From positions 1-41,188 of the IMG/VR virus record IMGVR_UViG_3300031707_000051: a stretch of DNA of 41,188 bases; one strand, written 5' to 3'. Below, piece by piece: positions 12,532-34,112 of this stretch. Origin of the DNA: a virus. Below the pieces are notes generated by a model that ran no database searches, was not told the origin of the DNA, and saw only the letters and a program-made list of their open reading frames with translations. Both the position numbers and the translations under genes were made by a program. The first letter of the stretch is position 1. Each line of letters begins with the position of its first letter.

Positions 12532-12560
12532 TTGACTTTTCTCTTTCAGTGTGTTATTGT
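12532..12560 (+). promoter_or_regulatory. Sigma70-type promoter for the winged-helix gene
   Basis: TTGACT 12532-12537 and TATTGT 12555-12560 with a 17-base spacer. The -10 is weak (four of six). The predicted start near 12567 leaves an 18-base leader with GGAG at 12572-12575 before ATG 12585. Confidence 0.6.
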
Positions 12561-12584: not shown

Positions 12585-12896
12585 ATGGGACGCGGTAAAT
12601 CAACGTGTGTGACTCAATCGGAAAAATTGTTGTTGATACTCTTGGACGGTCATGAAACTTCAGTGGATGAGATAACCACTTGTCTGGGTGGTGAAATCGT
12701 GCTCAATCGAATCGCCGCGTATATCTGGGACCTCAAGCAGATTGGAGCATATATCAAGCGCAATCGAGTAGGAAAACTTATTGTCTCCTACCAACTGGAC
12801 AACACAGAGGAGATGCACTCTTACGCACTAAAGAGGGGATTGATAGCACCTCCCATTGCGCCCCTCTCCCTCTCAGATTTTGCCGTCTCTTCATAA
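12585..12896 (+). CDS. Winged-helix-like DNA-binding protein
   Basis: 103 residues from ATG 12585, chosen because the promoter overlaps the earlier in-frame ATG at 12549. The sequence QSEKLLLILLDGHETSVDEI ... EIVLNRIAAYIWDLKQIGAYI ... GKLIVSYQL fits a winged-helix: helix 1, a turn, a recognition helix, then a beta wing. It probably regulates transcription, of phage or host genes unknown. It has its own promoter, and the downstream phosphoesterase may share the transcript through a structured intergenic RNA. Confidence 0.65.
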   Translation: MGRGKSTCVTQSEKLLLILLDGHETSVDEITTCLGGEIVLNRIAAYIWDLKQIGAYIKRNRVGKLIVSYQLDNTEEMHSYALKRGLIAPPIAPLSLSDFAVSS

Positions 12897-12902
12897 TATA
12901 AC

Positions 12903-12972
12903 GCTCGCACACATCCGAGGTCTACTCGGCCAATAGCAGAACTGAGGAACATGAAAACTGCCGTGTGCGAGC
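12903..12972 (+). ncRNA. Structured RNA leader (three-way junction) before the phosphoesterase
   Basis: A perfect 10-bp stem, GCTCGCACAC 12903-12912 with GTGTGCGAGC 12963-12972, closes a junction holding a second hairpin CCGAG-GTCTA-CTCGG 12915-12929 and a third stem GCAG 12936-12939 with CTGC 12958-12961 around an 18-base loop. Nothing follows that looks like a U-tract, so it is not a terminator. It ends 13 bases before the phosphoesterase ATG. The architecture suggests a riboswitch-like or processing element; I do not recognise the class. Confidence 0.55.
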
Positions 12973-12985
12973 CAAAAGAGGAAAT

Positions 12986-13639
12986 ATGAGAATAGTTTGT
13001 CTTTCCGATACACACGGTTACCACAAACTCTTAAAAGTCCCTGATGGGGATATGCTGATTTGTGCCGGTGACTTCTCCATGAGCGCAAAGCTACAGCATG
13101 TCGTGCAGTTTGCAGATTGGTTCAAGTCTCGACCGCATAAATATAAGATCATCGTAGCGGGCAATCATGATATGTACTGCGAAGATGACCATTTTTGGAC
13201 TCGTCAAGAATTCTTTCCTGCAATCTATCTGAATCACGAAGCCACCGAAGTCGGGGGATTGAAAATTTTTGGGTCTCCCTATTCCTGTGCCTTGTATCAA
13301 CCCTCTCCGTGGGCATTTGACTATGACCGCAAGTCATACCGTTCAGAACAATTGTGGTCACGGATTCCCGAAGGACTCGATATCCTTATCACCCACGGAC
13401 CCCCCAAGGGTATTCTGGATTTGGTGGATACTCATGGAACCAGAGAGGACCCCAACGTGGGAGACGTGAATCTCCTGTATCATGTGAAGCGCACACTTCC
13501 GAAAGTGCATATCTTTGGGCACATCCACGAAGGATACGGTGCTTATGAGAATGCTGCATTCAGAACTCGTTTCTACAATGTCAGCGCGTGCGACGTAAGA
13601 TATAACCCTTCTAATCCAGTAACCGTGTTCGATCTTTAA
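12986..13639 (+). CDS. Calcineurin-like metallophosphoesterase, MPPED family
   Basis: 217 residues from ATG 12986 (GAGGA upstream). All metallophosphoesterase motifs are present: SDTHG with D8 and H10, GDMLICAGDF, GNHDMYCEDD, THGPPKGILD, and GHIHEGYG. The PHKYKIIVAGNHD, HGPP and GHIHEGYG forms match the MPPED1/MPPED2 (UPF0046) class, which includes cyclic-nucleotide phosphodiesterases. A phage enzyme of this class could degrade cyclic nucleotide signals used in host defence (inference; the substrate is not readable from sequence). The structured RNA immediately upstream suggests post-transcriptional control. Confidence 0.88.
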   Translation: MRIVCLSDTHGYHKLLKVPDGDMLICAGDFSMSAKLQHVVQFADWFKSRPHKYKIIVAGNHDMYCEDDHFWTRQEFFPAIYLNHEATEVGGLKIFGSPYSCALYQPSPWAFDYDRKSYRSEQLWSRIPEGLDILITHGPPKGILDLVDTHGTREDPNVGDVNLLYHVKRTLPKVHIFGHIHEGYGAYENAAFRTRFYNVSACDVRYNPSNPVTVFDL

Positions 13640-17911: not shown

Positions 17912-17930
17912 CTAGGGTTTCGGTACTTTT

Positions 17931-17970
17931 GGAGCCGTGAAGTCACCAAGACCTCACGGCTCCATTGTTT
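17931..17970 (+). terminator. Rho-independent terminator after gp32
   Basis: GGAGCCGTGA 17931-17940 pairs perfectly with TCACGGCTCC 17954-17963; an inner GTC/GAC pair extends the hairpin with one mismatch. It is followed by ATTGTTTT on the plus strand. On the minus strand the hairpin is followed by AAAAGT, not T's, so it terminates only plus-strand transcripts. It separates gp32 from the converging tape measure gene and is the only clear intrinsic terminator in the window. Confidence 0.88.
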
Positions 17971-18009
17971 TAGGGGGTGGAGGGGGTAGAATTGGTTCAA
18001 GGGGGGTTA

Positions 18010-20070
18010 TTAGGAGTGTGCCCATGATCTGTCTATACTCCTCAAATAGCTCGATTCTTCGCTTCGTGCGGGGGAAACTCCTTGTGAGACATTAGTGATG
18101 TTAGAATTGTTGTTCCTGACATTATTGATGATTGTCGCTCCACCCCCGCTTGTTGCAGGTGAAAGTATAGAATTTCGCTGAGCATCCGCCGCTCCAATGA
18201 GTTTCATTCCCGTGGAGGGATTGGGTGCAGGAACCTCGGAAGGTGCGACTGGGGTTGCCGACACAGTGGGGACAGTGATATCTTCTTTGTTTTTAGAAGG
18301 AGTTGTTTCTGGTGCACCTGTCTGAGCCATCTGTGAGGTCTCTGGGGTTTGTTCTGGTGCGTTCAAGAACGCCTCTGATAATGCAGAGGATGCTTCCTTT
18401 GCAAGAGCAAGTAATCTAGGTCCCCTGTCAGGGTCAGTGAGGGGATTCATTGGTTCACCCTTTTCGTCCTTATACAAATCCCCATAGGCAGAATTGACGA
18501 GTTCTGTCAGTGCCCCAGTTGCCGCTAATGCTACGCTGGCCCCAGTGCCGACTCCAGGGACAAGGCTTGCTGCCCCAATAATGCCGTTAATAGCCCCACT
18601 AACATAATTCCCCTGTGCGAGATCATTTGCTGCGAGTGCGAGCCCGACACCTGGAAGTGCCTTACCCAATATTTTTCCTGCGACTTTTGGAACTAGAGAA
18701 CCAAGCACACCGGACACTTTACTTGAGGAAGCAACTTTCCCAACAACACTCTCAGATAATTTTGCACCCAAACTTTTTTCTACTCCCGCGACTGACTTTG
18801 TGGCTTTTAGTGTGATTTTCTTTGCAACTTTTTCGGTTGGTGCTTCTGCGAGTTTACCCGCAATGGCTTCTGACCCCTTTTCACCAAACCCCAGCATCTT
18901 CTTAACACCATTGAGTAGTGAGGAGCCACCTTTCATCACGGCAGAACCAGTAGTCGCTATCCCCGAAAGCAAACCCTTCCCCAATGCAGCAATGATGCTC
19001 TTCAACGGAAGAAGGAACATCGTGAGTCCAGCACCTATGGAGGCGAGTGTGGGGAGAAGTCCTCCAAGACTCTCCGCAAAACTCTTTAACAAATTCCCCA
19101 CCGTGCTGAACATCTCCGATAGGGGGCTTTCCTTTACCGGCCTTTCTTCTGTCTTAGTAATTTGCTGTGCCGGGCTCTTATTCTTGAATCGTGCTTTATC
19201 CTCAGCCGCTTCATCTCTTACATGATCCCAATGATCCTTAGCAATCTTCACACTCATCGCTTCAAAATTCTCAATAGTAGTTAACCGTTTGAGCATTTGT
19301 GACAGAGTGAGAGACATTTTATCCAAGAGGGGAAGAGCATCACCACCCATTCCTTTTCCACCATGTTGCCGCGAAGGGGAACCAAATTCTTTACTTAATT
19401 TTCCCCTTCCGAAAAATGAGGATGGTATCCCCGCTTCGCTTGGAGCTAAATCGGCAAATTGTCGAATACTTTGTTCGTTGCGACCAGTGAGTTTTCCAGC
19501 TAGTGCAACAGCGAGTTTTGAACCACCAGTCAATTTCTTGACGATGTTCAGTGGGTCAAATTTGTGTTTGAACTGTGCAACCCTGAGACCAGCGGCGGCT
19601 TTTATGGCTCCACCAACTCCCCCACCCCCAGCTAAATGTTCAGCAGCAGCATCGGACAGCGTTGCTCCTTGCTGCATCTGTGTTTGACGGAGACGCTTCT
19701 GTAAGTCTTTTAGGAATGATTTTTGATCTTTGAAGCTCTCTTGTACACCCCTCTTCGGTTCAGACTTACTTTGATTTTCAATTCCCGTTCCCTTAGATTG
19801 AACAATAGCAGCAAGCTCTCTATTCATATCCGCAAACTCACTTCTCAGGCTGTCCAGGCCGTCATTCGTCTTCAGCGTAGCCCTTGTCTGTTTCTTTGTG
19901 GCTTTCGTCTGTTCATTCTGAGCGTTCGTTCGTTCCTTGTGTTCCCTTGCTTGCCGTTTGGACTCTCGTGACTCTTTCGCTTCAGCAGGGATGTTCCGCC
20001 TAGTGGTGGGTTTCTCCTTTGCGTCAACGGGGATAACAATGCGTTTCTTGGGTACTACTCTGTCAGCCAT
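18010..20070 (-). CDS. Tail tape measure protein (gp29 role)
   Basis: 686 residues on the minus strand. Charged coiled-coil N-terminus (residues 1-110, many Lys, Glu and Arg), Gly/Ala-rich stretches (AGGGGVGGAIKAAAG), hydrophobic segments (about residues 340-375 and 470-530), and a Pro/Thr-rich tail with NNVRNNNSNITNVSQG near the end. This composition, and its place directly downstream of the gp26/gp51 chaperone pair, fit a tape measure, which sets tail length and is threaded through the tube. T4 gp29 is 590 residues. ATG 20070 is preceded by AAGG. It is the last gene of the minus-strand tail operon. Confidence 0.82.
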   Translation of the reverse strand: MADRVVPKKRIVIPVDAKEKPTTRRNIPAEAKESRESKRQAREHKERTNAQNEQTKATKKQTRATLKTNDGLDSLRSEFADMNRELAAIVQSKGTGIENQSKSEPKRGVQESFKDQKSFLKDLQKRLRQTQMQQGATLSDAAAEHLAGGGGVGGAIKAAAGLRVAQFKHKFDPLNIVKKLTGGSKLAVALAGKLTGRNEQSIRQFADLAPSEAGIPSSFFGRGKLSKEFGSPSRQHGGKGMGGDALPLLDKMSLTLSQMLKRLTTIENFEAMSVKIAKDHWDHVRDEAAEDKARFKNKSPAQQITKTEERPVKESPLSEMFSTVGNLLKSFAESLGGLLPTLASIGAGLTMFLLPLKSIIAALGKGLLSGIATTGSAVMKGGSSLLNGVKKMLGFGEKGSEAIAGKLAEAPTEKVAKKITLKATKSVAGVEKSLGAKLSESVVGKVASSSKVSGVLGSLVPKVAGKILGKALPGVGLALAANDLAQGNYVSGAINGIIGAASLVPGVGTGASVALAATGALTELVNSAYGDLYKDEKGEPMNPLTDPDRGPRLLALAKEASSALSEAFLNAPEQTPETSQMAQTGAPETTPSKNKEDITVPTVSATPVAPSEVPAPNPSTGMKLIGAADAQRNSILSPATSGGGATIINNVRNNNSNITNVSQGVSPARSEESSYLRSIDRSWAHS

Positions 20071-22767: not shown

Positions 22768-22783
22768 GCGTTTCCTTCCGAGA

Positions 22784-22791
22784 CATAAATA
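22784..22791 (+). promoter_or_regulatory. Late promoter box CATAAATA before gp48
   Basis: CATAAATAGA on the plus strand, with +1 expected near 22797 and TGGAGGAG (22807-22814) retained in the leader before ATG 22819. Confidence 0.72.
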
Positions 22792-22799
22792 GACGTTAG

Positions 22800-22807
22800 T
22801 ATTTATT
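22800..22807 (-). promoter_or_regulatory. Late promoter box AATAAATA before gp4 (minus strand)
   Basis: Plus-strand TATTTATT reads AATAAATA on the minus strand; +1 is expected near 22794, leaving a 27-base leader with GGAAGGAA before ATG 22767. It lies eight bases from the opposing plus-strand box, so the two start regions overlap. Confidence 0.6.
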
Positions 22808-22818
22808 GGAGGAGATTT

Positions 22819-30385: not shown

Positions 30386-32719
30386 ATGGCTAATACATTA
30401 TCTCTCATAGTACGCCAGCAATTACCTGAATACATAAGATCAGAATATGAAACTTTTGTTCTGTTCGTAGAAGCCTATTTTGCCTGGATGGATAAGCCAG
30501 GTAATACGACGAACATTTCCAAGAATATGCTCAGTAATATGGATTTGGATACCACACAACTTGATGATTTTATCACCTTCTTTACGAAGCAATTTCTTCC
30601 GCTCTTCCCCCCTCAATATCTCACGAATCCCACCTTCTTTATTCAACATGCGAAGGAATTCTATCGTGCAAAGGGAACGAATAAGTCGGTGAAGCTTCTG
30701 TTCCGCCTACTTTTTCAACAAGACATCGATATATTCTTTCCAAAGGACAGCATTCTTCGTTCCTCTGAAAGCGGCTGGAAACAGTCACGCTCTCTACGTC
30801 TGGATGGAACAATGTGGACGATTCAGGTAGCCGATGGGATCACTAAACGCTTCCGCGCACTGGATACCTCTCGCACTGTGACACCGTCCCTCTATCTTAA
30901 TGGGGTTTTACAAACACTGAACACCCACTATACACACAGTACCAATGAACCCTGGTTCTCGTTTCTGTCTACACCAACAGTAGGTTACGAGGTGAAAGCC
31001 GTCTATCAGGGAACTGATTTTATTAGTCACTTTGGAACGAATGAAATCGTGACGAAGTTTGTTGGTCAAACTTCAGGAGCGAGCGCGATTTCTGAAACTC
31101 TTCAGCAGGTCACAGAAGATGGAATCACACAACTGGACCTGGAGGTCACAAAACCGCTTGGAATTTTTTCACAGTTTGAACTGGTGAGGGGACGCTGGAC
31201 ATATGATGTGAATGCTGCCCAACATCTCGATATCTACGGTCAGTTGGTCTCCTATCTCAGGGATATTGTAATTGTCGATGGTGGAACACGATATAATGTG
31301 GGTGATACTGTTGTCATTAGTGGTGGATTTCCGGTAATCTCCGCCACTGCGACTGTTGACTCAATTTTTTCAGCACTCATCTCCAATATCACAGTTCTCG
31401 TTGGTGGTGCTGGCTATCAACCGGGACAGTCCGCTTATATCACTTCGACTCCGAACACAGGACTCAATGCGTTTGTCCTCTCTGTGGACACTTCAGAAGC
31501 AGTGCACCCCAATTCCTATCCCATGAATCAAGATGTTTTGACGCTGTGGGCTAACACGGTCATGTCTAATAGCGACTACTACTTCACTTCATCAGTCAGT
31601 GAGAATGTCAATAGCTTAATGAGTATTGCATTTACGGATTTCTTGTTTGGAGAACACCCGATTGAACGATTGGGGCCTGTGTCATCCTTGACGATCACTA
31701 GCAGCACGCAAGTATTCAATCCAGCACCAACACTCGCAATTGATCCTCCCATTGTCCATGTGACAGGGATCACGGCGAACGGTGATACGGCAACAGCAAA
31801 TGTCTCGCTTGCGTATTTCGGGATTCTCGGTAAGATGAACGTGCGTAATGGAGGATCGAACTATCAAGTGGGCGATGAAGTCTCCTTTGAGAACATTCCA
31901 GGGGTCGGGCTAGGCATAGGAGCGGCCGCAGAAGTCACCAGTCTCCATGTAGCGAACACAGGCATTAAGACTGTGAACTTCCGTCCATCACGACTTACGG
32001 GAAATGTCACGGTTAATACAGCAGTGTCCAACGTGCAAGTGGTGGGAACAGGAACATTCTTTACAACTGAATTGGTAGCAAACGATCACATTGAAATCAA
32101 CAGTGAATCGAGCTATGTATCCACAATTATCAACGCAACACATTTAACTGTCAATACCGCGTTCACTCGCAATTCAACTAGCCGACGACTTGGAATCTAT
32201 GGACGTTATTTTGTGGGAGGTATGAACTATCGACAGGAGGCATTACCCACAGTGCGCGTCTCTTCAAATGAAATTACAGCAATAGGGGCAGATGTCGCGG
32301 TTGATCTTGTATTGTCTGGAGGAGCTTCCTTCCTTTTGGAACCGCAGACTCAGGAACCAATTGGAAAAATCAAAACTATTCGTATCACAAATCACGGCTA
32401 TGGATATCAGTCACCCCCTGTCATTGACTTGACGGGTAGTGGAAATGGCAAAGCCAATGCTATCGCCGTCATGTTGAGCAATCTCTTTATAGCACCAGGA
32501 CGTTTCACCACGACAGAAGGATTCTTGAGTTCAGATCGAAAGCTTGAGAATGATGGTTATTACACGACATATTCCTATGTCGTAAGAGCGGAAACAGAAT
32601 TAGCAAAGTATAGCGGAATCCTCAAAGACTTGACGCACCCAGCGGGCATGAAGCTTTGGGGAGAATACGTGATTAGCGATATTGTCACACAAAACTCCAT
32701 TTCCGCACAGAGCGTATAA
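30386..32719 (+). CDS. 7: gp7-like baseplate wedge protein
   Basis: 777 residues versus 1032 in T4. N-terminal helical part (YETFVLFVEAYFAWMDKPGN, FLPLFPPQYLTNPTFFIQHA, KSVKLLFRLLFQQDIDIFFP) and a C-terminal end (ELAKYSGILKDLTHPAGMKL) are typical of far-T4 gp7 proteins. The middle is beta-rich with at least three copies of the Gly-rich module (starting near 31264, 31840 and 32368, for example HGYGYQSPPVIDLTGSGNG). It links gp6, gp8, gp10-type and gp53 in the wedge. The stop TAA is inside the next late box. Confidence 0.82.
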   Translation: MANTLSLIVRQQLPEYIRSEYETFVLFVEAYFAWMDKPGNTTNISKNMLSNMDLDTTQLDDFITFFTKQFLPLFPPQYLTNPTFFIQHAKEFYRAKGTNKSVKLLFRLLFQQDIDIFFPKDSILRSSESGWKQSRSLRLDGTMWTIQVADGITKRFRALDTSRTVTPSLYLNGVLQTLNTHYTHSTNEPWFSFLSTPTVGYEVKAVYQGTDFISHFGTNEIVTKFVGQTSGASAISETLQQVTEDGITQLDLEVTKPLGIFSQFELVRGRWTYDVNAAQHLDIYGQLVSYLRDIVIVDGGTRYNVGDTVVISGGFPVISATATVDSIFSALISNITVLVGGAGYQPGQSAYITSTPNTGLNAFVLSVDTSEAVHPNSYPMNQDVLTLWANTVMSNSDYYFTSSVSENVNSLMSIAFTDFLFGEHPIERLGPVSSLTITSSTQVFNPAPTLAIDPPIVHVTGITANGDTATANVSLAYFGILGKMNVRNGGSNYQVGDEVSFENIPGVGLGIGAAAEVTSLHVANTGIKTVNFRPSRLTGNVTVNTAVSNVQVVGTGTFFTTELVANDHIEINSESSYVSTIINATHLTVNTAFTRNSTSRRLGIYGRYFVGGMNYRQEALPTVRVSSNEITAIGADVAVDLVLSGGASFLLEPQTQEPIGKIKTIRITNHGYGYQSPPVIDLTGSGNGKANAIAVMLSNLFIAPGRFTTTEGFLSSDRKLENDGYYTTYSYVVRAETELAKYSGILKDLTHPAGMKLWGEYVISDIVTQNSISAQSV

Positions 32720-32722
32720 ATA
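32715..32722 (+). promoter_or_regulatory. Late promoter box TATAAATA before gp8
   Basis: Perfect T4 consensus overlapping the gp7 stop codon; +1 near 32728 gives a 15-base leader containing AAGGA before ATG 32743. Confidence 0.8.
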
Positions 32723-32742
32723 GAACACTATAAGGAACTGCT

Positions 32743-34074: not shown

Positions 34075-34082
34075 ATAATGTA

Positions 34083-34090
34083 CATAAATA
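34083..34090 (+). promoter_or_regulatory. Late promoter box CATAAATA before the giant baseplate/fibre gene
   Basis: CATAAATAGAACAAAG, +1 near 34096, leader of 17 bases with a GGCGGGAA element before ATG 34113. Confidence 0.72.
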
Positions 34091-34112
34091 GAACAAAGGC
34101 GGGAACAATTTC

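Follow-up and report, generated by a model that had tools for sequence, protein, structure and literature searches.

A covarying three-way-junction RNA and its replacements at a fixed gene junction in uncultivated T4-like phages

The DNA analysed here, called the window throughout, is a virus record of 41,188 bases that is T4-like in character, its T4-like genes including those for a gp32-like SSB (Pfam, E 1.1e-42), a tail-tube cap and a tail protein. On its + strand, a sigma-70-like promoter (TTGACT-17-TATTGT with a TG before the -10; 12532 to 12560) lies upstream of a gene for a 103-aa winged-helix (WH) protein (12585 to 12896), and by-eye reading finds TTGACA or TTGTCA, a spacer and a TATAAT-like box 5' of the WH gene in most of the relatives inspected. 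The AlphaFold model of the WH protein has a winged-helix fold (mean pLDDT 80.3), for which the nearest solved folds are ArsR/MarR-type repressors, matched weakly at E 0.008 and above only. The protein has a basic N-terminus and matched no Pfam family, and relatives of it were found neither in the genome contig collection nor in named phages. Downstream on the same strand follows the gene for a 217-aa MPPED-like metallophosphoesterase (12986 to 13639, ATG at 12986), which is assigned by its sequence similarity to MPPED2 (3rl4_A, E 6.4e-40). The sequence-only reading that preceded this work had placed a compact structured RNA between these two genes, and the predicted fold and the MPPED2 match bear out its naming of both neighbours.

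The RNA element, which defines family A, spans 12903 to 12972 (+) according to RNAfold and the covariance model, and the same three-way junction is both the MFE and the centroid structure of the window sequence. Its closing stem P1 pairs 10 bp without a flaw between 12903-12912 and 12963-12972. RNAfold further predicts P2, the 5-bp hairpin CCGAG-GUCUA-CUCGG (12915 to 12929; 12915-12919 with 12925-12929) with the loop GUCUA, and P3 (12936 to 12961), whose 4 bp (12936-12939 with 12958-12961) close an 18-nt purine-rich loop at 12940-12957. These are the stems originally drawn from the sequence, and they stand. The span proposed with them, 12903 to 12985, holds up to 12972; the rest, 12973 to 12985, is an unpaired tail outside the structure and forms the ribosome-binding region of the phosphoesterase gene, with a Shine-Dalgarno-like AGAGG from 12977. 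The element folds with -28.1 kcal/mol (z -3.84), whereas shuffled sequences average -16.85 ± 2.93 and none of 200 folds as well. In a 72-nt scan of both strands its site (+ strand) ranks about 28th by GC-corrected energy, so that it is notable mainly as a gene gap: among the 15 other gene gaps of the window that were scored, one 576-nt gap being left out, a single + strand reading falls below z -2 (22768-22818, z -2.78). A 12-codon mini-ORF at 12951-12989, with GAGG before it, begins within the 18-nt loop, and its stop overlaps the phosphoesterase ATG. A leader peptide starting at the ATG at 12951 was rejected as unconserved, a GAGG-preceded ORF being present in the window only among the 13 gaps checked.

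Membership of a known ribozyme or riboswitch family is ruled out by the comparison with Rfam: no family of Rfam 15 reached its gathering score for the window element or for the loci of its relatives, a permissive scan (E up to 5) gave nothing for family A in the window, and further permissive scans gave one chance-level match each, far under gathering. It had also been remarked that the element has neither a U-tract nor a tRNA anticodon arm, and the searches agree. Neither a tRNA nor tRNA arms were found at the element by Rfam and a tRNA search, which rules out tRNA identity. An intrinsic terminator is ruled out as well, no terminator-like site being found on the + strand here, and instead of a G+C-rich stem that runs into U residues, P1 is followed by CAAAAGAGG. 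A hammerhead core, suggested by CUGAGGA and GAAA in the 18-nt loop, was dropped when a matching third strand was not seen by eye. A literature search through listings and selected passages found no description of this element.

A search with the phosphoesterase yielded 25 loci, of which L002 and L003 carry the window gap unchanged over the stretch compared, while in most of the others the sequence upstream of the enzyme is apparently unrelated. The WH gene is the useful anchor, its relatives showing folded RNA directly after the WH stop codon. Family A is shared by six distinct T4-like phages, the window and five environmental ones (L036, on the same contig as L007; L037, the same as L054; L042, the same as L053; L046; and L049), always directly 3' of the WH stop codon. 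The octamer CCTATAAG led to L046 and L049, so the member set is in part a by-eye choice. A covariance model built from the window, L046 and L049 and tested on 283,209 bases recovered the held-out members L036 (E 2.2e-5), L042 (E 9.8e-4) and L037 (E 6.7e-3), and up to E 2 it found nothing elsewhere in those bases. Across the family, P1 has about 8-12 bp, J1/2 two bases, J2/3 6-7 nt and J3/1 1-3 nt, and the length of P3 is variable; P2 has 4 bp and the loop CUAUAA in the five other members, against 5 bp and GUCUA in the window copy. The unpaired positions that are kept are just the first base of J1/2 (A, 6/6) and the loop CUAUAA (5/6, the window excepted).

The element is a conserved structured RNA with compensatory changes in its homologues, the outcome that the sequence-only reading had made the test of its proposal. 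In the six-row alignment, which was fitted to the structure beforehand, 96.7% of the 90 cells pair, and both sides have changed in 11 of the 16 pairs, including 8 of the 10 in P1. The covariation score of 0.629 compares with 0.187 ± 0.051 for shuffled alignments (0/500 as high) and at most 0.171 for slid ones. When four sequences were folded one by one with RNAfold, and L046 and L049 likewise, each formed a closing stem, P2 and a third arm. In P1, three G-U cells are consistent with the sense strand, and reverse-strand scores are much lower (18.4 against 75.4 bits for the window). Family A is present in a single copy per record (6/18 records with the first model; 7/34, including a near-copy of the window, with the refined one) and solely after the WH gene in the records searched. 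As a DNA pattern the core loop matched only near-identical contigs. Of the 11 stretches that contain the exact P2 pattern ACANCCGCCTATAAGCGG, three (L124-L126) belong to known members and eight are other sequences, several of which have one tRNA-like stretch in common; the R1 search in 70 further loci found nothing.

The corresponding site in relatives also houses two other families of covarying RNA: B, a bulged hairpin, and C, a small one. A family B hairpin has 6 + 10 pairs and a 3' bulge of exactly 2 nt; 8 of the 18 representatives contain 11 copies between them, including two in tandem in each of L009, L037 and L154. In its arms 170 of 176 cells pair, and 9 of the 16 pairs have changed on both sides. 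Counted by the tool on nine copies, two badly aligned ones being omitted, both-sided changes affect 5/16 pairs (28/500 shuffles as high) and the covariation is 0.380 versus 0.210 (0/500 shuffles as high), with pair types not in excess (13 vs 13.0). G-U cells number 14 and A-C cells 2, and this excess of standard G-U over A-C mismatches on the + strand points to a sense RNA. All matches to family B, in 9 of 24 records, follow the WH gene. Some of its copies end in GTTRRRY-type sequences; an attC-like site was rejected by eye, these ends being limited to some copies and their order opposite. Family C is the hairpin GCCRAGACYUUNANUCRAGGG inside stems of differing sequence (L017, L056 and L162), and an exact DNA scan for the motif matches the L017 and L056 contigs only. 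The three folds are unrelated and have in common only closed stems at their feet. A genome-wide mobile cassette was rejected, A and B having no copies elsewhere in the records searched.

The tree and the distribution were drawn up on 18 representative phages, for which near-copies (L002, L003, L008, L011-L014, L016, L150) and repeated contigs were dropped, as was L040, which is related to L039, though distinct, and likewise has no element. An element is present in 14 of the 18. The window, L036, L046 and L049 carry A alone, L042 carries A and B, and L037 carries A and two copies of B. One B is found in L015 and L038, two in L009 and L154, another fold with B in L010, C with B in L162, and C with another fold in L017 and L056. 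In the four phages that lack an element (L005, L039, L041 and L057) the next gene comes at once, and in L041 a 176-aa ORF (702-1232) occupies the gap; this ORF is HNH-endonuclease-like by eye and has no Pfam match. On the WH tree family C forms one clade (97/94), and the A label is scattered, with 4 changes (235/500 label shuffles as low). L041 and L046 have nearly identical WH proteins, and their DNA can be aligned as far as the WH stop codon and then again from within the phosphoesterase gene, the material between having been cleanly exchanged: A in L046, the 176-aa ORF in L041. A 98-aa ORF in L005 (2739-3035), related to that of L041 and apparently shortened, overlaps the phosphoesterase start. 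The position of the WGR-domain gene differs between phages (L036, L038, L009 and L042): in some it precedes the phosphoesterase gene, in others it follows. Directly downstream of A it is found in one of the six members (L036); in five of the six, no gene intervenes between the RNA region and the phosphoesterase gene. The constant neighbour of the element is the upstream WH gene, and the downstream gene varies. At this fixed place after the WH stop codon the fold covaries, and in relatives it is replaced by B or C, by a protein gene or by nothing.

The gaps downstream of the WH gene are strongly folded as a group: in 14 of them z runs from -1.28 to -7.78, and 12 lie below -2 (the exceptions are L049, -1.84, and L017, -1.28), against a mean of -0.09 (sd 0.88) and 1/26 below -2 for control gaps, namely other same-strand gaps of 60-260 nt in the same loci. 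The first stem begins 0-7 nt past the WH stop codon in 14/14 MFE folds, and from the foot of the stem to the next start there are 11-16 nt in 10/14, the exceptions being L042 (5), L049 (7), L056 (6) and L017 (1, whose gap does not end exactly at a start codon). The part of the gaps that stays unpaired, 10-23 nt, is as large as after shuffling or larger, so that bridging is unsupported by that number. In silico, the openness of the phosphoesterase Shine-Dalgarno sequence and start is 0.34 with the element and 0.15 with the element removed. It stays at 0.34 when the 5' arm of P1 is blocked, and the stem itself may thus not matter to the ribosome-binding site. No partner masking the ribosome-binding site was found.

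The reading to which we lean, by analogy with T4 genes 25 and 38 and with less than even confidence, is that the element acts as a fold-away spacer or insulator in cis, an interchangeable cassette on the early WH-phosphoesterase transcript. Family A would be one of a set of interchangeable, strongly self-closing RNA cassettes that separate the WH gene from its downstream neighbour, be it the phosphoesterase or WGR, within a single early phage transcript, and it would presumably act without a ligand. Through the long P1, some 70 untranslated nucleotides would be packed into a single closed unit, with its feet 6 nt past the WH stop and 13 nt ahead of the phosphoesterase ATG. By this folding the stop codon and the next ribosome-binding site could be kept close, the site could stay single-stranded, and the untranslated gap would present little open RNA to RNase E or Rho. 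A spacer of this kind is favoured by the fact that A, B and C are all closed stems with one foot close to the WH stop and the other usually 11-16 nt short of the next start codon. However, stable stems in gaps of 89-255 nt might just as well prevent coupling, and the A-specific loop CUAUAA (5/6), which a plain spacer would not need, suggests something more specific.

It is this loop, kept together with the first junction A (6/6) while the stems change, that would make most sense for an operator, in which a phage or host protein binds the P2 hairpin and controls the decay of the WH mRNA or the translation of the next gene. The T4 gp32 and gp43 operators described in passages of PMC3014915 offer precedents, and the basic N-terminus of the WH protein would fit, but the window copy has GUCUA instead, B and C sit at the same site with no motif in common with A, and the WH model weakly resembles DNA-binding repressors of the ArsR/MarR type; on balance we regard such an operator as rather unlikely. 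The 4 label changes of A on the WH tree, clustering no more than shuffled labels do, the clean replacement by an endonuclease-like ORF in L041 and the tandem B copies of L009, L037 and L154 would all suit selfish or passive cassettes (palindromic insertions), tolerated at a hot-spot junction where HNH-like endonuclease and WGR genes come and go. Since A and B are not dispersed in the genomes, and the one-strand G-U covariation implies selection at the level of RNA and not of DNA, this too is unlikely.

A processing site or 3'-end stabiliser of the early WH message, serving as an RNase III-type site or an exonuclease barrier, would account for elements that adjoin the WH stop codon and for the long bulged hairpin of B with its exact 2-nt 3' bulge, yet the closing stem of A has just 10 bp, and we consider this role doubtful. 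Equally doubtful is a trans-acting function, in which the WH gene would carry a quickly evolving module of early RNAs, with between one and three structured RNAs, drawn from three or more unrelated families, made from a strong early promoter, serving for example as host-defence-protein decoys or phage small RNAs and swapped as units between phages. The sequence-only reading had likened the element to a riboswitch and speculated on a nucleotide-sensing leader of the phosphoesterase. A compact three-way junction immediately 5' of a nucleotide-type phosphoesterase, the next gene after the RNA region in 5/6 members, would invite that view, but the evidence does not support it. The J2/3 and J3/1 strands are not conserved, nor is there a conserved ligand-binding core, CUAUAA is absent from the window copy, the perfect 10-bp P1 is probably too stable for easy switching, and there is no expression platform, neither a terminator nor a partner masking the ribosome-binding site; a ligand switch is therefore very improbable. 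L036 has the WGR gene directly downstream, unrelated folds occupy the same site in other phages, and Rfam has no match.

Among known systems, the PeSL cassettes of T4-type phages, reportedly described by Arbiol et al. in 2010, are said to be intergenic stem-loops near early promoters, dispersed units in which a terminator-like stem-loop is paired with a promoter. They resemble the present elements in being intergenic stem-loop cassettes near early promoters of T4-type phages; A and B differ from them, by that definition, in being confined to one site, without dispersed copies, and in having the promoter upstream of the WH gene. Three-way-junction riboswitches such as the purine class likewise arrange three helices round a junction, whereas A lacks a conserved junction core, an expression platform and an Rfam match. 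For T4 genes 25 and 38, section 29 of PMC3014915 describes an intervening RNA fold between the Shine-Dalgarno sequence and the AUG that shortens the effective distance. The fold-away spacer would resemble these cases in that an RNA fold absorbs spacer beside a ribosome-binding site, but it would lie between a stop codon and the next Shine-Dalgarno sequence instead of within the initiation region of one gene, and it is larger and comes in interchangeable families. With the leader operators of T4 genes 32 and 43, as passages of the same source (PMC3014915) present them, A shares a structured RNA 5' of a phage start codon; each of those operators binds the protein whose gene it precedes, whereas A may precede different genes. 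Taken as a whole, one fixed gene junction of uncultivated T4-like phages yields three covarying RNA families not described before, and also a natural experiment, in which close relatives with the same flanking genes have A, B, C, a protein gene or nothing in between. If the fold-away spacer is true, the principle of T4 genes 25 and 38 would reach beyond the inside of a single initiation region and apply to entire intercistronic gaps; elements acting in trans would represent a novel type of phage RNA module that can be exchanged.

Some other features of the window deserve mention. The top folding signal of the 72-nt scan (-25.2 kcal/mol, GC 35%) lies immediately 5' of the tRNA cluster, at 121-192. 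A tRNA-Arg at 956-1034 is called by ARAGORN and not by Rfam, and a tRNA at 1135-1205 by Rfam and not by ARAGORN. A 686-aa protein without a Pfam or PHROGs match is encoded at 18010-20070 (-). Between its reverse gene and the convergent gp32-like gene, a strong fold at 17912-18009 (- strand z -6.5) is probably a terminator. Directly upstream of large genes lie TATAAATAGAACA (32714-32727) and CATAAATAGAACA (34082-34095), which resemble T4-type late promoters.
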